From Saccoglossus kowalevskii (taxonomy: Eukaryota; Hemichordata; Enteropneusta; Harrimaniidae): DNA of 20,756 nt. The stretch spans positions 253,198 through 273,953 of the forward strand of contig NW_003121914.1 in assembly GCF_000003605.2 (NCBI RefSeq). Direction: 5' to 3'. Of the stretch, positions 1 to 20,756 are shown piece after piece. Each line of letters opens with the position of its first letter. The first letter of the stretch is position 1. Below the pieces are notes generated by a model. It made no database searches, had not been told where the DNA came from, and saw nothing but the letters and a program-made list of their open reading frames with translations. Position numbers and translations under genes: made by a program.

Positions 1-590
1 AAAAGCATACGCACGGCACACGCAGAGGGAAAATCGTGGAAACAAGAAATATACACATTTCTACGTAATTATCGATCACGCCTCACTGCACGACAGGTCA
101 AAGTCCCGCCACTGAAATATTTCAACGACCAATGAGAATAAAATTACCAACGTATTATAACTCAAGTCTTAGTGATAAAATCAGACACCAAGACAGTAAG
201 GCCAAACAGAAAATGAAAGAGTATGCTGACAATCGACGCAATACGGTTACATCTGAAATTCAGGAGGGCGACACAGTACTCGTTAAAAATGCGGTAAAAG
301 GAAAACTCGAGACTCCTTTCATCGCTGATCCATACCAAGTCATTCAAAGGAAAGGCAGCATGATTTCCGCCAAAAGAGGCACGCGTACTATAACTCGCAA
401 TTCTTCGCATTTTAAGAGAATTCCCCACCATAAAATTGACCATGAAATCAACACCACCGATTTGACAGATGAGGAGGACTTACCCTTGGATATCAATAAT
501 CCTGCATCTCCGGTTCAAAAGGAATCTGCAAAACGATACCCTACTAGAGATCGTCATCTTCCGAAATACCTTGAGGATTATCATACTTAG
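1..590 (+). pseudogene. Ty3/gypsy retrotransposon pol, integrase C-terminal fragment
   Basis: This is the 3' end of a gypsy-type pol polyprotein, which in an intact element would encode the integrase that inserts the cDNA copy. Bases 1-80 read in frame 1 with the typical late integrase-core wording (IRTAHAEGKSWKQE, then FLRNYRS). The protein then continues in frame 3 from about base 79 to the stop at 588-590, so a one-base deletion near base 80 breaks the frame. The frame-3 part has a PHCTTGQSPA segment, a GDTVLVKN motif, a TPF...PYQV...KGSMISA stretch and a TRNSSHFKRI motif, matching the GPF/GPY-type C-terminal integrase module. It ends with the YPTRDRHLPKYLEDY tail common in these elements. 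The rest of pol lies left of the window. The frameshift makes this copy inactive. There is no chromodomain. Family assignment comes from motif recall, not a search. Confidence 0.88.
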
Positions 591-5117: not shown

Positions 5118-5546
5118 CTATCTTTGGGCAAATGGGGCCTCCACCGAACGTCTCCATTCTGTCCTATCAGCTGCTGCTACTCTGGCTTCCGCCCATGACT
5201 TGTATCCAGCCTTGTGGCTTTCCGTCTCGACAATTCGTCGCCAAGTTGTTTTGCCACTACCCTGTTTCCTATTATCCTCTGGGGCCCATGTCGATGTTGT
5301 GTTACATATGCTTGTAGGTTCCTTTCTAAAGGTGTGTTCAATAAATGCCCATCTTCTCTTCATTACTGTAGTGCTCAATTTCTCCATTCCAATCCTGGTT
5401 AGTAGTTCTTTATTCCTAACATGGTTTTACCGTTTTATCTTCATTATCCTTCTTAAACGCGTTGTTTGGAAAATATTTTTCTTTCCTTTTGTAATCTTCC
5501 CAGTTCAAGATCCATATAACAGCACCGAAACAGCAAACAGTGCACA
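5118..5546 (-). pseudogene. Non-LTR retrotransposon reverse transcriptase, C-terminal fragment
   Basis: Minus-strand translation gives the end of a LINE-type polyprotein: an LLYGS segment, LRRI, then RRWAFIEHTFRKEP, WAPEDNRKQG, GKTTWRRIVE and a final ADRTEWRRSVEAPFAQ before a stop at 5118-5120. This order (YGSE..W; RRxWxxIGHxxRK; TWRRxxExE; DRxxWRxxVxA) is the hallmark of the region just after the RT domain in many invertebrate LINEs. An in-frame TGA at 5505-5507 and a TAA at 5427-5429 interrupt it, and the catalytic RT core is missing, so it is a dead, 5'-truncated copy. I cannot name the clade. Confidence 0.85.
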
Positions 5547-8703: not shown

Positions 8704-9450
8704 AGTGTGGTTAGTTGATGGCCCGGCATCTAAAGTAAAGGTCGGGCTTGATTAGTACTTGCATTGAAGACTACCTCGGTACACAGGCTGTTGGAATTCT
8801 TTCGTATGGTTGCATGCCACACATGGAAAGGTTATGAGGGAATGATCATGCATTTTTCTTGCTGTGATATCAATCATTGACAGTGGAGAATCGAGGAATT
8901 GTTTTAATTCATGGAAAGTTTTCAAATTCTCTCTAATTTTCAACGAATATTGTTTCGATACTGTCGGCTCGTAGTGGTTTTAAGCCGCTAAAACACTGTG
9001 CAGAGTTGAACAAAGTTGTACAAAGTGATTGTGAAGTTGTGCAAAGTGATTGCAAATTTGGTAGATGTATTTGTATATATGACCTAAGTTGTTGGCATAT
9101 AGAAACGCGCTGTTGTAAAGTCGAAAAAATGAACAAAAGTCATATGAAAGCAGCCCATATTTGAAGATTGTCTCCCATGAGCTGGCTGTAAAATGTCAGA
9201 AAACAGCGTGCAAACTTTGAAAACGCGTTTGAAAAGTGGGCGGAGTTGTTAAATTACGAAAACATTAAATGTCTAGAAAATGTCCCATATCTAAAGAGAT
9301 TATCAAAAAGCGAACCGAAAAATTGAAGACAAACTGCTTACAAACTTGTGAGAAGCGATTGAAAAGTTGGTAGACTCATATGGGATTGTTACCTATGACG
9401 ATATATTAACAAGTCCCATAGTTAAGATGTAAACAAATATTTAACAATTA
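8704..9450 (+). repeat. 5S rRNA-headed composite repeat, copy B
   Basis: This matches copy A along its whole length with a spacing of 843-862 bp. Its head (about 8725-8793) preserves AAAGGTCGGGCTTG, ATTAGTACTTG and GAAGACTACCT, closer to 5S box C in the first part (GTCGGGCCTGGTTAGTACTTG) but weaker afterwards. The body keeps GACCTAAGTTGTTGGC, CAGCGTGCAAACTTTGAAAA and TGTCTAGAAAATGTCCCAT. At its right end CAAATATTTAACAATTATT merges without a gap into 92-bp satellite sequence. Copies A and B look like a tandem duplication or two units of one element. Confidence 0.8.
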
Positions 9451-9620
9451 TTGGGATATAAACAACACTCATTTAATTATTTTCCACCATTAAACTCGTT
9501 AAATTGAGTGAATAAATGTGTGGACAAATATTGGCCAATGTTTGTGAGTAAATACCTATACCTTTAGAAGGTTGTTAAATTGAGAGTATAAATTTGTTAA
9601 CTAAATATTTGATACTTCTG
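9451..9620. repeat. 92-bp satellite remnant, about two copies
   Basis: It contains CTCGTTAAATTGAGTGAATA, ATGTGTGGACAAATATTGG, GAGTAAATACCT and AGGTTGTTAAATTGAGAG in order. These match specifically the deletion-bearing variant units at the right end of the large array (about 2944-3075), including the shared GAGTAAATACCT, so it is a second insertion of the same right-hand part. Confidence 0.85.
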
Positions 9621-10245: not shown

Positions 10246-10259
10246 CTATATTGTTACAG

Positions 10260-10438
10260 ATGGGGGGAACAAATCCATTCCAGGTGACACCATTCTATTC
10301 AGCATGGGCACCCGTGGAGAAACAGCATGGAATACCGAACACAGAAAAGTGATAAGAGAAACTGAAAGGCTTTAGACAGAATGTCGTGATATATTCGAGG
10401 AGCGTTTAATAGAACTCCTGAATTCTTCAAGCATTACG
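10260..10438 (+). pseudogene. Exon-like decayed segment, copy 1
   Basis: It is flanked by a pyrimidine-containing TTGTTACAG on the left and a donor-like GGTAAATG on the right. One frame reads protein-like on both sides of a single stop (TAG at 10373-10375): GNKSIPGDTILFSMG before it and TECRDIFEERLIELLNSSS after. The second duplication copy has GAG at the homologous codon but carries its own lesions. No family is recognised. It may be an eroded exon of an unknown gene or chance. Confidence 0.3.
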
Positions 10439-11093
10439 GTAAATGATGATTACTATTATTCAACCACAAGGTGGCAAAATCGGACAAGATTCATTCCATA
10501 TTTGTTAAATTGGTCAAGTTTCATTTGTATTGATTGACTTGAGCTGATATTTATTATATAGCAATTAGAATATACAATATGCTTTGATGTTAATATTTTC
10601 TTCAAAAGGTTGCAAAGGTTAATTAAGTATGTTCAACTTGCAATGTTTAGGCAACCGCCCCAAAATATGATATAATATTGAACATTTGACAGAAAAATAC
10701 ACTTAGAAATCTATGAATTATTGTACTAAATATTCTATGGAGCAATACTCTAATTTAAATATAGACTCACAAAGATTAAAATTAAACAGATAAATACTCA
10801 TATATGGTATATATAGGTGTCACAACAACGCAATATTACCGTAATTGGTATAGTACAGGTGTGATGGTTCAAATACCAAAATGGCAACAGTAACATAAAG
10901 ACATCCCTGGCGGCGATGATAACATACGAACACGGAGCCAACAGATGAGGTTTCAACTGGTACTGGTATTATTATACTCTGCAAACATCAAGTACAATAA
11001 CGCGGTAAAACTCCAATCCTCCAACAACTAGATACTTAAACTCCTACACAATTCAACGAGATCTCCGATCTGAACTCAGTGCTGAACAACTCC

Positions 11094-11103
11094 CTTTTAT
11101 ATA
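11094..11103 (-). promoter_or_regulatory. TATA box of the solo LTR
   Basis: The minus strand reads TATATAAAAG, preceded by a G-run, 45 bp downstream of the nearest heat-shock-element-like motif. The layout resembles a heat-inducible pol II promoter and would start transcription toward lower coordinates. Confidence 0.55.
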
Positions 11104-11147
11104 CCCCCACTGTCTATAAATAGACCATTACATCAGCATACATAATG

Positions 11148-11284
11148 AGTCTAGAACTTACTACAAATTTCTAGAATGTTCCATTACCTTCTATTGCCTC
11201 CTACAGTGTTCTATTACCTATTCAATCAGTTTCTAAAAAAATCTAGAATATTCCACCCAGACACAGTACGGTTCTAGAACATTC
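11148..11284 (-). promoter_or_regulatory. Cluster of heat-shock-element-like motifs in the solo LTR
   Basis: Two perfect three-unit motifs of the form TTCnnGAAnnTTC lie at 11169-11181 (TTCTAGAATGTTC) and 11272-11284 (TTCTAGAACATTC). A one-unit-degraded copy is at 11241-11253 (ATCTAGAATATTC) and a partial one at 11148-11159. This is the binding pattern of HSF trimers. On the minus strand all lie upstream of the TATA box at 11094-11103. Confidence 0.65.
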
Positions 11285-11303
11285 TCAGTGATACGACAAT
11301 AGG

Positions 11304-13153
11304 TTTCTGCAAGATGCCATCATTGTATCATATGTGCACCTAAGTTACTAAATCGGGATAAGAGAAGTCTACGTGATCATGTTAATCTTATTAGATCCTT
11401 CAAGGTTCAACCATCAGTTGTTATTGTTGATATGCCACATATGATATAAAACATTGAAATATTATATATCTCCAGATGTCCATTCCTATGACGCAGACTT
11501 GCAAATAACACATCAGAAAATAATATGCTGACAACAGAAAGCAAATTACACTCACCTTGGTTATATGGTTGACCAGACCTAAGAAATCATGTACTAGGCG
11601 ATGATAATCACCTGTAATTGTATGATGTTTTTTACAAAAAAAATACATCCAAAGAAGTATTACGACGTATTGCAAATGTTCCGGAGTTGCACGGAATTGT
11701 AAATAGTGAGGATGATTTGATTTATTCATATATCTACAGAGACAGGTTGGGAGAGTGTATACTGCCAAGACCAATGGATTGAAATTGATTATTCCACACA
11801 CTGTGTGGATATATTTGTAGAGTTAAAGACATCCAACGGACAGTACAATCTCATTTGAAGTTACGCCAACATATTTTAAACTTCATTTTAAAACTTAACT
11901 TCAGGCGAGAAATGGCATTTTTGTTCATTCACAATCCCATGGATTGCTGTGAGACAAGTTACAAGCATGTGCTTTACACTACTGTAAATATAAGATTAGT
12001 CGTGCACAATATGTCAATGATAGTTATTATTATCCAAAAAACATTGAAGTTAGTATTATTGAGAGTATAACGTGTTCAGCGTTAAACGATATTGATTGGC
12101 ATTCCCAATTATTAGTTAATCGGTTAAGGCTGGCTCATGTCTTTCTGTTATTATTTGTTATTTTATGTTTCATACGTCTTTGTATTCAACATAATATTCA
12201 GAGTTTTGACAAGATCAGCAGATTGTATAAATACAAATGAAGACGGTCATGGCGCATTATTTCAAACCATTATTGCATAATATAATTATCTCCCTGGTAT
12301 TCTAAAGAACTTACCATGTATCGAACTACGTGTCGAAAAATACGTTTTGAGAATAACATCGACTACATGAAAGGGTTGAGGGTTTCGGGTGACCAGATTA
12401 TACTTGTTGTTGTTTCAATTATGTTGCATTAGAAAATAATAATTTACAGAGCAATGAAATAAAATTAAATTGAAATCTTTGTTTGCGCATATTCTCTTTT
12501 ATTCAATTTGTTTCGTGAGCTGTACTACGTACTATGATAACGTCGGTTTTATTCTTTAGAGAGACCTGGTAATCACGACAAATGCATTTGAACTGATATA
12601 TAAAACTACTTGACTTTATTAAATTGCCTATGATGACAGAGGACGGAAAACCCAATCAGACCACTTTAAAGAACGTTGGAAACGCGATATTATCTGAATC
12701 CAGCACTGTAATAACGAACGTACTTGTCGATTGTAAGGGGATTATTGTACGATGCAACATATATGAAAATTCCATTCTCAAATCCGGAAGAACTGCCTAG
12801 GACACTATTTGCACCACTTCATTGGGTTGTATGTAAGGGGATCGATATATCGTCTCTTACTGATTGGCTATGTTGTGCAGTGTACTCGACAGTTGTTTTG
12901 TTGAATGTTGTCTGTCATTTGTTTCATATTCCTATTCTCTATGCGACTTGATAAACAGATAAACGGTTAGATATAATAGTTTTAATTGATGATCTTTATT
13001 CCAAATGCATTAAATATAAATGTGATAAGATTATGTAATATATTACTATAAATACATTTGTAACATGTGACATTTAAATTTGTAAAGTTTACAATTTTTA
13101 TATGCATAATGCTTTTATATCAATAAATATTTTTAGTGATTTTTTGTTCATCA
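11304..13153. other. Duplicated upstream region of the NTF2-like gene, no confident gene
   Basis: Homologous to about 17490-19970 of copy 2. Stretches with some protein-like wording occur on the plus strand (about 11640-11735, and 11830-11910 with LKLRQ...NFILKL), but stops interrupt them, the copies differ, and no domain is recognised. Between about 11546 and 11732 the two copies are non-homologous. Nothing else is supported. Confidence 0.45.
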
Positions 13154-13160
13154 TATAAAA
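13154..13160 (+). promoter_or_regulatory. Candidate TATA box of the NTF2-like gene
   Basis: TATAAAA lies 187 bp upstream of the start codon. The duplicated copy keeps both the box (19971-19977) and exactly the same 187-bp distance, while flanking regions differ by indels. If used, transcription would start near 13185, leaving a leader of about 155 bases. Not proven. Confidence 0.45.
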
Positions 13161-13202
13161 AATGTTAGCTTTGAAAACATCGACTGCGTTCGGAGCGCCA
13201 CC

Positions 13203-13286
13203 ATGTGGCCATTCACACAGCACACGTAGATTACTCACAATATGTTGTTGCTTATTCTGGCAGAGATACAAACAATCCCGAGCTGA
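13203..13286 (+). promoter_or_regulatory. Two short upstream reading frames in the presumed leader
   Basis: An ATG at 13203 sits in an ideal Kozak context (GCCACCATG) and encodes eight residues before TAG at 13227-13229. A second ATG at 13242 opens a 14-residue frame ending at TGA 13284-13286. Both precede the main ATG at 13341 and, if transcribed, would be expected to lower its translation. In copy 2 the first has become ATGTGA (20020-20025), a start-stop element. Confidence 0.4.
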
Positions 13287-13340
13287 GCAGTGTAACATAC
13301 TGTACCGAAAGCCGAGTACAACTTTTACAGTTTTCGCATA

Positions 13341-14349
13341 ATGACTGGCAACCCTGATCTGAGGAAAGTGCTTGAAGAACGCATTGATACATTTAGCCGA
13401 CTATTCAACGAAAAGAACTGGGAGGCTCTTTACGATATGCATACTCCTGAATGCAGATTTATTCGCGCTGGGAAAGTGTATTCAGGGTCTACTGGTGTGT
13501 ATTTAATTATTCATCAATATATCAGCTTATATATTTTTTCGTAAATTCACCGTTGGTTTAAGGATTTACCGTGACACATTCACTTATGTGTTTACGTTTT
13601 GATACAACCACATATGTTTGTTCGCTATATATCCTCTAAATTATCTCCTTGCCAAAATATTGGCTTATTTAGGGTACGTATATCGTCATACAAAACACAA
13701 AAATAGGTTCGTGCCTATTTTTGTAAATGTGTGTTTTATCCCGCTGATTGGTTTTCCAGTAAATTCACTGAGACTGGTTTTGCTTAGCTTGTAGGCTTTC
13801 ATTATAATGTTGTGACCGACGAAGTGAAATGTGACAGAATAATGTAGACTATATTAATTACAATATTGTTAGGTAAGATTGTAAATTTGAGCAATATTTA
13901 GTTAGCTGAAATGTTATTGAAACAACCTGTAATAGAGACTTGCCCCTTTTTCATGAAATAAACGTGATATCCAATCTTGTCAACAATTCCACATAAAATA
14001 TCACGTTTGCAACTCATTAAATAAAAAAACAAACAGTTACAAACCTGATTGTCCATTCATTGTATCGTTACATCTACCGTTAAACGTACGTATTACAAAT
14101 ACCTAATTTCGCTGATTTTCAGATACAATAGAAAAAATGAAGCAGTTGAGAATGGAATTCGATAAAATGGACGCAACAACAAAGGACGTTGAGGGAATAT
14201 TAGGAGGTGATAATGTGTACTGTAGTGTCACATACAAGATGAAAAATGCAGAATCTCCTGTGTACACCATCAAATTATTATACATATGGAAGCTGGTCGA
14301 TGGGTTATATAAAGCTGATATTGTGTTTGCTTCAAAGCATATTCCTTAA
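13341..14349 (+). CDS. NTF2-like/SnoaL (DUF4440-type) small protein, two exons
   Basis: The gene has two exons, 13341-13494 and 14123-14349, separated by a 628-bp GT-AG intron (donor G|GTGTGT, acceptor TTTTCAG). Splicing restores one frame of 127 codons (126 residues plus TAA), with a split GAT codon. The protein has the family's layout: an N-terminal amphipathic helix (RKVLEERIDTFSRLFNEKNW, residues about 8-27), then ALYDMHTPECRFI, a GKVYSG turn, a second helix IEKMKQLRMEF, and C-terminal strands with YCSVTYKM, YIWKLVDG and YKADIVFAS. The W...DG.....D end is typical of DUF4440/SnoaL proteins. There is no signal peptide or membrane segment, so it is probably cytosolic. Members adopt an NTF2-like cone fold and often bind small ligands; the ligand here is unknown. 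The first in-frame ATG after the leader was taken as start. Confidence 0.78.
13495..14122 (+). other. Intron of the NTF2-like gene
   Basis: It begins GTGTGTATTT and ends TGATTTTCAG. Its first 487 bases are duplicated at 20295-20756, showing that the second copy also carries the intron. No nested gene is seen. Confidence 0.75.
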
Positions 14350-17013: not shown

Positions 17014-17027
17014 TTATATTGTTACAG

Positions 17028-17217
17028 ATGGTGGAAACAAATCCATTCCAGGTGACACCCATCTATTAAACATGGGCACCGTCCATTCGACTAGCTACCC
17101 GTAGGAAAACAGTATGAAATACCGAACACAGAAAAGTGAAACAGAAACTAAAAGGCTTGAGACAGAATGTCGTGATATGTCCGAGGAACGTTTAATAAAA
17201 CTTCTGAATTTTTCAAG
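17028..17217 (+). pseudogene. Exon-like decayed segment, copy 2
   Basis: This is the homologue of 10260-10438. It keeps the TTGTTACAG acceptor and GNKSIPGDT wording, then holds 19 extra bases (within about 17063-17084) and a compensating one-base loss near 17140. It has stops of its own, though the stop seen at 10373 is a GAG here. The AAATGATG donor context is lost. Confidence 0.28.
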
Positions 17218-19074
17218 AATTACGGTGGCGAAATCGGACAGGATTCATTCTAATTTATATTTGTTATATTGATCATGTTTCATTTGTATTGATTGGACTG
17301 AGGTCACATTTATTATATAGGAATTGGAGTATACACAATCCTTTGATATAATATAGACCTACAGAGTTTAAATTTAGAAATAGTGTAATTCATAAAATTG
17401 CAACTGTTAATGGTAAATATATCATTGACTAAATTGTGTATGAAAAACAGATAAATATTTTTTATATAGTATATATGGCTACCTGCAACCTGCCCTCATT
17501 GTATCGTATATGCACTTAAGTTACATATCCGGGATCAGAGAAGTCCACGTGATCATGTTAACCTTATTAGATCATTTAAGGTTCAACCATCAGTTGTTAT
17601 TGTTGATATGCCACATATGGTAGTAAGACATTGAAATATTAGATATCTCTATGACTTGCAAAAAACACATCAGAAAATAATATGTTGGCATCAGAAGGCA
17701 AATTACCATTTCTCTATTGACTGCATGTTGAATGTAGATTGTTGATCAGAGACTAAATAACCATGTTGGTTTAAGTCATATAGGATTTTTAAAACTGTCA
17801 TTGTTAGTTAAGTACTTCATTTTTCAATTCAATCTTTGGAAGTACATGTTACATAATTATGTTCTCTCCTCACACAAGCGTCATTCGACCGCAAATATTT
17901 TTCTTATTGACCACATGTCCAATGATACCGCACAAATGAATAGTGTGTCCAGGCAGAAAAATGTAACAGGTATGATAATTACATATCTGAATCATGTTCC
18001 TCATAATTTGTATTTCAATCATCCAATACAGATAATAAAATAATACAACATTCGGTTATAGACATTGAAGTCGCAGAAAAGATTATATAGCAATAGACCA
18101 AATACAAGATAATTGACTGTGATATGAAAATATCGTTAGTATGGAACATGTTGGTTTTCAATCGTGAGGCTAATATATTCATAAGTATTATTTTTAGTAT
18201 TTAGGTTACAATAATTAAATGATTGCTATTATGACGGTTCTACGCGAGTCACGTGAAACTACCGACAGGAAGTATCACTGGTCTGGGGATGCCCTACATA
18301 GAGACAGGTTGGAGTTAGATATCCCACGGACAGAACTATCTCACTTGGAGTTACGCCAACTCATTTTAGACTTCATTTTAAAACTTCACGTGAGAAATAG
18401 CACATGGCATTTCTGTTCATTCACAATCCCATAGATTGATGTGAGACGAGTTACAAACATGTACTTTACATTACGGTAAATATAAGATTAGTCGTGCACA
18501 ATATGTCAATGATAACATAGTTATTATTATCCAAAAAACATTGAAGTTAGTATTATTGAGAGTATAACGTGTTCACGATATTAATTGGCATTCCCAATTA
18601 GTAGTTAATTAGTTAAGGCTGGTTTATGTCTTTTTGTTATTATTTGTTATTTTATGTGTTATACAAGTATGCATTCAACACAGTTTTGACAATATCAGAT
18701 AATTGTATAAATACAAATGAAGACGGTCATGGCGCATTATTTCAAACCATTATTGCGTAAAAAAAACGTTTTGAGAATAACATCAACTACATGAAAGGGC
18801 CGGGGGTTGTGGGTGACCAGATTATACTTGCTGTTGTTTCAATTAGGTTGCAATAGAAAATAATATCTTACAGAGAAATGAAATGGAATGAAATTGATGT
18901 CTTTGTTTGTGCATATTCTCCTTTATTCAATTTGTTTCGTGAGCTGTACAACGTACTATGATAACATCGGTTTTATTCTTTAGAGAGACCTGGTAATCAC
19001 GACAAATGCATTTGAACTGATATATAAAACTACTTGACTTTATTAAATTGCCTATGATGACAGAGGATGGAAAA

Positions 19075-19320
19075 CGCGCGCTAAGATTAATAAGGTATTT
19101 TTTATCAGTTCGCCATCACGGCAACGTAAATTTCAGTAGTGTACATTTTGTCATCCACCTATATTGTCCCTAATAACCAACAAAATAAGTGGCAATATTG
19201 TTCTTCTCAAAATTGTGCTCGTGTTCTGCCTTTATAAAATAAAATACATGCAGTAAGTATTTGTTATTTGTAGAAATTATATGTGTAGGTTAACGTACAT
19301 TTCACCTTACAAAATACGAA
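19075..19320. other. 246-bp segment present only in duplication copy 2
   Basis: Copy 1 reads GGAAAACCCAATCAGACC without interruption at 12648-12665; copy 2 has 246 bp between GGAAAA and CCCAATCAGACC. It starts GCGCGCTAAG-like and ends AAATACGAA. Terminal inverted repeats and a clear target duplication are not evident. It could be a small non-autonomous insertion in copy 2 or a deletion from copy 1. Confidence 0.6.
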
Positions 19321-19361
19321 CCCAATCAGACCACTTTAAAGAACGTTGGAAACGCGATATT

Positions 19362-19493
19362 CCCACGACTAAAACAATTTTCAATATCACATTTAATTGA
19401 TTGCATTAATTAGAAGTTAATGTATTCGTGATTGCATCAATGACGTATTTAGCTTTCCTCTTTATTTGAAATGCATTTTTAAAACTAATTATT
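19362..19493. mobile_element. 132-bp segment in copy 2 with a possible TATT target duplication
   Basis: Copy 1 reads GCGATATTATCT at 12689-12700; in copy 2 the GATATT is followed by 132 extra bases ending TTATT before ATCT. A TATT on both sides fits a 4-bp target duplication. The ends (CCCACGACTA and ACTAATTATT) are not inverted repeats. A TGATTGCAT[T/C]AA word repeats inside. It could equally be a deletion in copy 1. Confidence 0.4.
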
Positions 19494-19970
19494 ATCTAAA
19501 TCCAGCACTGTAATAATGCATGTCGATTGTAAGAGGATTATTGTACGATGCAACATATATGGAAATTCCCTTCTCAAATCCGGAAGAACTGCCTAGGACA
19601 CCATTTGCAGCACTTGATTGAGTTGAATATCAGGGGATCGATATAACTTCTCTTACAGATTGCCTATGTTGTGTAGTGTACTCGACAGTTGTTCTGTCGA
19701 ATGTTGTCTGTTATTTGTTTCATATTTCTGTTCTCTGTGACTTTATACCCGGATAAACGGTTAGATATATTTATTCCAAATGCATTAAATATAAATGTGA
19801 TTAGATTATGTAATATATTACTTTACAATATATATCTAGTGGTATAATATATATGTATATAAATGCATTTGTAATACGTGACATTTAAATTTGTATAGTT
19901 TACAATTTTTATTTGTATAATGCTTAAACTTGTACATCAATAAATAATCTTCGAGATTCATTGTTCATCA

Positions 19971-19977
19971 TATAAAA
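19971..19977 (+). promoter_or_regulatory. Conserved TATA box in duplication copy 2
   Basis: TATAAAA at the position homologous to 13154-13160, 187 bp from the pseudogene ATG. Its retention means transcription of the dead copy remains possible. Confidence 0.4.
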
Positions 19978-20157
19978 AATGTTAGCTTTGAAAACATCGA
20001 TTGCGTTCGGAACGCCACCATGTGAGCATTCACACAGCTCACGTGGGTTATTTACAGTATGCTGTTGCTTATCCTGGCAGAGAGACAAACAACTCCGAGC
20101 TGAGCAGTGTAACATACTGTACCGAAAGCCGAGTACAGCTTTAACAGTTTTCGCATA

Positions 20158-20294
20158 ATGAATGGCAGCCCTGATCTGAGGAAAGTGCTTGAAGAACGCA
20201 TTGATAAATTTAGCCGACTATTCAACGAAAAGAACTGGGAGGCTCTTTAAGATATGCATACTCCGCGCTGGGAAAGTGTATTTAGGGTCTACTA
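20158..20294 (+). pseudogene. NTF2-like/DUF4440 pseudogene, exon 1
   Basis: This is the duplicate of exon 1 at 13341-13494. The first 30 codons stay open (NGSPDLRKVLEERID and FNEKNWEAL), then a C-to-A change turns TAC into TAA at 20248-20250. A 17-bp deletion at the junction 20264/20265 adds a frameshift and removes the PECRFI segment. The last exon base is changed (G to A), but the GT donor at 20295-20296 persists. The encoded peptide could include only the first helix, so no fold is expected. Exon 2 would lie beyond the window. Confidence 0.88.
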
Positions 20295-20756
20295 GTGTGT
20301 ATTTAAATATTCATCAATATATCAGCTTATATATCTTTTTCGTAAATTCACCGTTGGTTTAAGGATTTGCCGTGACACATTCACTTATGTGTTTACGTTT
20401 TGATACAACCACATATGTCTGTTCGCTATATATCTTCTAAATTATCTCCTGGCCAAAATATTTGCTTATTTGCGGTACTATATCGTCATACAATACACAC
20501 AAATAGGTTCGTGGCTATTTTTGTAAATGTGTGTTTCATCCCGCTGATTGGATTTCCAGTGAACTCACTGAGGCTGGTTTTGCTTAGCTTGTAGGCTTTC
20601 ATTATAATGTTGTGACCGACGAAGTGAAATGTAACAGAATAATGTAGACTGTATTAATTACAATATTGTTAGGTAGGATTGTAAATTTGACCAATATTTA
20701 GTTGTGATAGAGACATGGCCCCTTTTCATGAAATAAACGTGATATCCAATCTTGTC

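Follow-up and report, generated by a model that had tools for sequence, protein, structure and literature searches.

The window analysed here, the whole stretch of 20,756 nucleotides taken from contig NW_003121914.1 of the hemichordate Saccoglossus kowalevskii, holds two diverged copies of one segment, at about 10250–13980 and 17015–20756. The first is interrupted by a solo long terminal repeat (LTR) of 481 bases at 10818–11298. A plausible host gene, outside the element, lies at 13341–14349 on the plus strand, with exon 1 at 13341–13494 and exon 2 at 14123–14349. Its NTF2-like (DUF4440/SnoaL-like) product of 126 amino acids scores 25.6 bits against DUF4440 (cut-off 25.2) and 25.9 bits against SnoaL_2 (cut-off 27), and a search of the PDB with this protein yielded three weak matches, the best with an E-value of 0.12. 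In the second segment, exon 1 of the paralogue (20158–20294, plus strand, its end taken from the alignment) is broken by an in-frame stop codon and a 17-base deletion; the expected place of its exon 2 falls beyond the end of the contig.

Elsewhere in the window, about 7.5 tandem copies of a 92-base unit occupy 2264–2955, with diverged units of this repeat at 9424–9604, 6.5 kb away. A 173-amino-acid open frame at 69–590 (plus strand) resembles, by eye, the C-terminal end of a gypsy-type pol, and a 102-amino-acid frame at 5118–5426 (minus strand) the tail of a non-LTR reverse transcriptase; neither has a Pfam match. Pfam searches with ten open frames of the window returned nothing above cut-off, and Rfam gave no match at gathering score across the whole window.

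The solo LTR and its empty site

The LTR is delimited by genome matches and by family copies with matching ends and target site duplications (TSDs). Its TGTC…GACA termini and the flanking ATAGG duplications (10813–10817 and 11299–11303) are exact on direct reading, and in element sense, which is the minus strand, it runs TGTCG…TGACA. Compared with the 506-base copies found elsewhere, it lacks some 25 bases just within the 5′ end. Its identity as a solo LTR with exact ATAGG duplications, as first proposed, is thus confirmed.

When the LTR and one TSD were removed and the joined flanks aligned to 17201–17750, the alignment ran across the target, which in the second copy lacks the insert and reads ATGGC at about 17475–17479 (plus strand). 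The flank before the target is gappy and the flank after it aligns well. This places the empty site within the interval 17472–17490 near which the preliminary description had put it, and supports insertion after the duplication. Branch lengths bear out the same order independently. Over 1965 sites aligned locally upstream of the NTF2-like gene, the K2P distance between the two segments is 0.105, or about 0.053 per side; in a tree of 75 near-complete LTR copies, the terminal branch of the window copy is 0.024, with the nearest copy at 0.030, and 7 of 478 columns in this set show a base in the window copy that is seen in no other. Given a branch of 0.024 against 0.053 per side, the insertion looks to be roughly one-third to one-half the age of the duplication, if rates were equal.

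The LTR family and the element behind it

Searching the 572-Mb host genome with the whole LTR gave 594 first-look candidates, and all of the 40 that were scored (the window copy included) reached at least 95%. A 33-base LTR tag, allowing up to three mismatches, was found at at least 502 places (264 forward, 238 reverse), with none for a reversed-pattern control. We examined 74 copies (L001–L058 minus three internal pieces, plus L080–L098), taken from among the best matches and the places that fit the tag exactly, a sample in which young copies are over-represented. Sixty-three were complete and 11 partial, the window copy being classed as partial because of the 25 or so bases missing inside its 5′ end. 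An exact 5-bp TSD was present at the nominal ends of 53 of the 63 complete copies, so the boundaries read in the window are those of the family; copies with other boundaries that break the TSD, which the preliminary description had named as grounds for rejection, are not what this sample shows. Among the ten complete copies with no exact TSD, a primer site follows L017, a 5′ LTR; a polypurine tract precedes L012 and L051, both 3′ LTRs; L027 and L034 have a full TSD once their ends are shifted by 1–2 bases; and five fall into none of these classes. For the tree and the motif counts below we used 75 near-complete, single-span copies from 89 rows. Four sequences that the 33-base tag could not orient (L060, L068, L076 and L078) were excluded from the constraint, TATA-spelling and tree analyses, as were L059, which is the same place as L017, and four internal pieces.

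Most of the copies examined are single units of about 506 bases, as they would also be if the family were a non-autonomous DNA transposon with TGT…ACA ends and TSDs of 5 bp. We give that reading almost no credence, since LTRs of this family are joined to primer sites and polypurine tracts and have gag and reverse transcriptase (RT)–RNase H sequences beside them. An exact pattern of LTR end plus primer site occurs at 20 places, 18 of them behind LTRs of the window family, and the primer site presumably fits tRNA-Pro. A polypurine tract followed by the LTR occurs at 22 places (17 exact, five with one mismatch). Contig C1211 has the two junctions in the proper order and GTGAG at either outer edge, and the two LTRs there, whose intervening stretch was not read through, are 97.0% alike (11 mismatches and four gaps over 504 positions). 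This two-LTR insertion inside one TSD refutes the DNA-transposon reading. A second LTR pair, on C2951, is 97.1% and 97.7% alike over two stretches, with ATGTT and ATGTA as outer bases; on C2039 most of the inside of the pair has gone and TAATG stands on both sides. Set against at least 502 tag places, these junctions and pairs mean that most copies of the family are solo, in a ratio to full elements that is rough because the search patterns were not equally strict and much of the internal sequence reads N.

The remaining two primer-site junctions, L076 and L078, belong to a second LTR type that shares the primer site, has no match to the window-LTR family and stands outside the family counts; the 700 bases before their primer sites contain no perfect heat-shock element (HSE).

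The internal sequences indicate the class of the element. In L060, a natural open frame of 497 amino acids after the primer site matches SCAN (PF02023; 33.5 bits, cut-off 27) and a zinc knuckle (22.2 bits, cut-off 20.8), and L074 has a SCAN match just under the same cut-off (26.2 bits). RT and RNase H matches are present in L111 and C13 (the latter being L012, the same place as L101), in frames that end about 200–320 bases before the 3′ LTR, too short a space for an integrase to follow. In L113, two integrase matches stand ahead of RNase H, too close to it for an RT to fit in between: one to the zinc-binding domain (42.4 bits, cut-off 25.5) and a weak one to the core, below cut-off (18.9 bits, cut-off 26.5). 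A 204-amino-acid frame in L114 had no Pfam match. The order of integrase before RT–RNase H is pieced together from separate copies, no single intact copy having been read through. Together, the SCAN-type gag and this domain order point to the Gmr1 clade of Ty3/gypsy, an assignment made from these features rather than from an RT tree. Published accounts place RT–RNase H at the 3′ end of Gmr1 elements with integrase upstream (PMC8220671), report that more than half of the Gmr elements of frogs carry SCAN and that no other element type there does (PMC4131045), and describe the clade by the same gag and domain order (PMC3424704). The window family shares both features and differs in the paired HSEs of its LTR. 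Among the titles and abstract openings listed, mostly from the open-access literature, none mentions an animal Gmr1-like element with paired HSEs in its LTR; as evidence of novelty this is weak.

Heat-shock elements in the LTR

A motif scan of the window LTR located, on its minus strand, a distal perfect HSE that reads GAAnnTTCnnGAA (11272–11284), a degenerate one with one mismatch at a site that varies between copies (11241–11253), a proximal perfect HSE (11169–11181) and a second degenerate one with two mismatches (11149–11161). These lie ahead of a TATA box, TATATAAAAG (11094–11103, minus strand), with the proximal HSE 65 bases upstream of it and a predicted transcription start near 11065–11075 on the same strand. 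The preliminary description was right about the number, quality and order of these motifs. The spelling TTCnnGAAnnTTC that it gave is the plus-strand reading; the strand of the TATA box, the minus strand, has the equally good GAAnnTTCnnGAA in its place. Both are standard phases of the HSE. Its TATA box is present on the minus strand as described and is peculiar to the window copy, as TATATAAAAG occurs in one of 84 family copies and TATATATAGG in 73. In 2000 simulations that preserved the dinucleotide composition of the LTR, no sequence contained two or more perfect HSE trimers (simulated mean 0.0015), and the other 20,275 bases of the window lack any perfect trimer.

The HSE cluster is a trait of the family, found across hundreds of LTRs, which makes the observation stronger than first stated. 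Two perfect trimers are present in 53 of the 75 near-complete copies, one in 20, three in one and none in one; the loss of the motifs from other copies, named earlier as grounds for rejecting the idea, was not what we found. The first 38 copies contain 59 perfect trimers in 19.6 kb of LTR, a density of 3.0 per kb, and four in 99.7 kb of flank, or 0.04 per kb; the distal element is family-wide. Both specific 13-mers lie 74–104 bases apart at 316 places in the genome (165 forward, 151 reverse), against none for the reversed-pattern control. LTRs at polypurine junctions show a similar picture, with two perfect trimers in 14 of 22, one in five and none in three. Paired HSEs occur in both LTR subfamilies, and the gap from proximal HSE to TATA box is 65 bases for 63 sites.

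Between the two HSEs the LTR exists in two forms, one of which has lost a third, near-perfect HSE to a deletion. That site reads GAATATTCTAGAT in 23 of 72 copies, GAATTTTTAGAAG in 12 and other spellings in the rest. The distance from the distal HSE to the TATA box peaks at 169 and at 157 bases.

One alternative is that the insertion is a solo LTR of the same family whose heat-shock-like motifs were never under the control of heat-shock factor (HSF), having been inherited from a successful source element or binding something else. The constraint analysis agrees with this as far as it goes: mismatches to a reference copy affect 3.3% of cells at HSE positions against 5.9% elsewhere, and as low a rate is reached by 40% of random window pairs, so nothing in it shows that selection keeps the motifs. 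The 20 near-complete copies with one perfect trimer, the single copy with none and the three polypurine-junction LTRs with none are likewise what it would lead one to expect. Set against it are the pairing of perfect trimers at 75 times the density of the flanks in both subfamilies, and the 65-base spacing to the TATA box at 63 sites. Present silence of solo copies would fit an HSF-driven promoter in the parent element and forms no part of this alternative, which we regard as unlikely, if worth keeping in view.

A putative heat-responsive promoter and its surroundings

The reading we favour, with good confidence, is that the window LTR is the HSF-driven promoter of a Gmr1-like retroelement, which inserted after the local duplication and was left as a solo LTR. 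A Gmr1-like Ty3/gypsy retrotransposon would have entered at 10818–11298 once the two segments had separated, and recombination between its two LTRs would then have left one behind. In the living element the LTR serves as promoter, and solo LTRs such as this one keep it. With two HSEs at a near-fixed distance from the TATA box, host HSF would most likely switch on the element under heat or protein stress, by analogy with ONSEN and with TCN3 of Cryptococcus. HSF binding and heat induction of the element are the most likely meaning of this architecture. Several points count against the heat-induction part: HSEs can be bound without driving heat induction, the constraint analysis gives it no backing, and 21 of the 75 near-complete copies have fewer than two perfect trimers, as do eight of the 22 LTRs at polypurine junctions.

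The promoter of the window copy would fire leftwards, to lower coordinates. The preliminary description had suggested that the NTF2-like gene might have acquired stress-linked control from the LTR, control that its dead paralogue lacks. This finds no support in the orientation of the promoter, which lies on the minus strand and faces away from the plus-strand gene at a distance of 2 kb; an influence on the gene would have to be that of an enhancer acting over that distance. LTR control of the NTF2-like gene is speculation. That the LTR acted as an enhancer and gave the gene stress-linked expression, absent from the broken paralogue, would accord with its location 2 kb upstream, its insertion after the duplication and its HSEs. 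We consider it improbable all the same, given the direction of the promoter, and the coding lesions of the paralogue suffice to explain its loss without a regulatory cause.

Plants provide the best-known cases of heat-responsive LTRs with HSEs. In Arabidopsis, ONSEN/COPIA78 is activated by HSFA2 under heat via HSEs in its LTR (PMC8376061). It resembles the window family in being an LTR retroelement with HSEs in the LTR, and differs in being a plant Ty1/copia element whose activation has been shown, whereas the family described here is known from its motifs. The TCN3 and TCN12 LTR retrotransposons of the fungus Cryptococcus have putative HSEs in the LTR, and TCN3 further shares 5-bp TSDs and solo LTR insertions with the window family; a difference is that mobilization at 37°C has been observed there (PMC12810828). 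An animal parallel is the HSE-bearing Helitrons of Caenorhabditis, which likewise spread HSEs through an animal genome; these are DNA transposons, and both HSF-1 binding and heat induction of neighbouring genes have been measured there (PMC6927752).

It is conceivable, and we put it forward tentatively, that this family has spread several hundred ready-made HSF-responsive promoters through the genome, some of whose solo LTRs put host genes or antisense transcripts under heat-shock control. If so, the family would be the LTR counterpart of the Caenorhabditis HSE Helitrons. A high-copy family with 316 paired-HSE places in an animal-type genome would offer a natural test of whether LTRs rewire a heat-shock response, because many near-identical modules sit in different surroundings.
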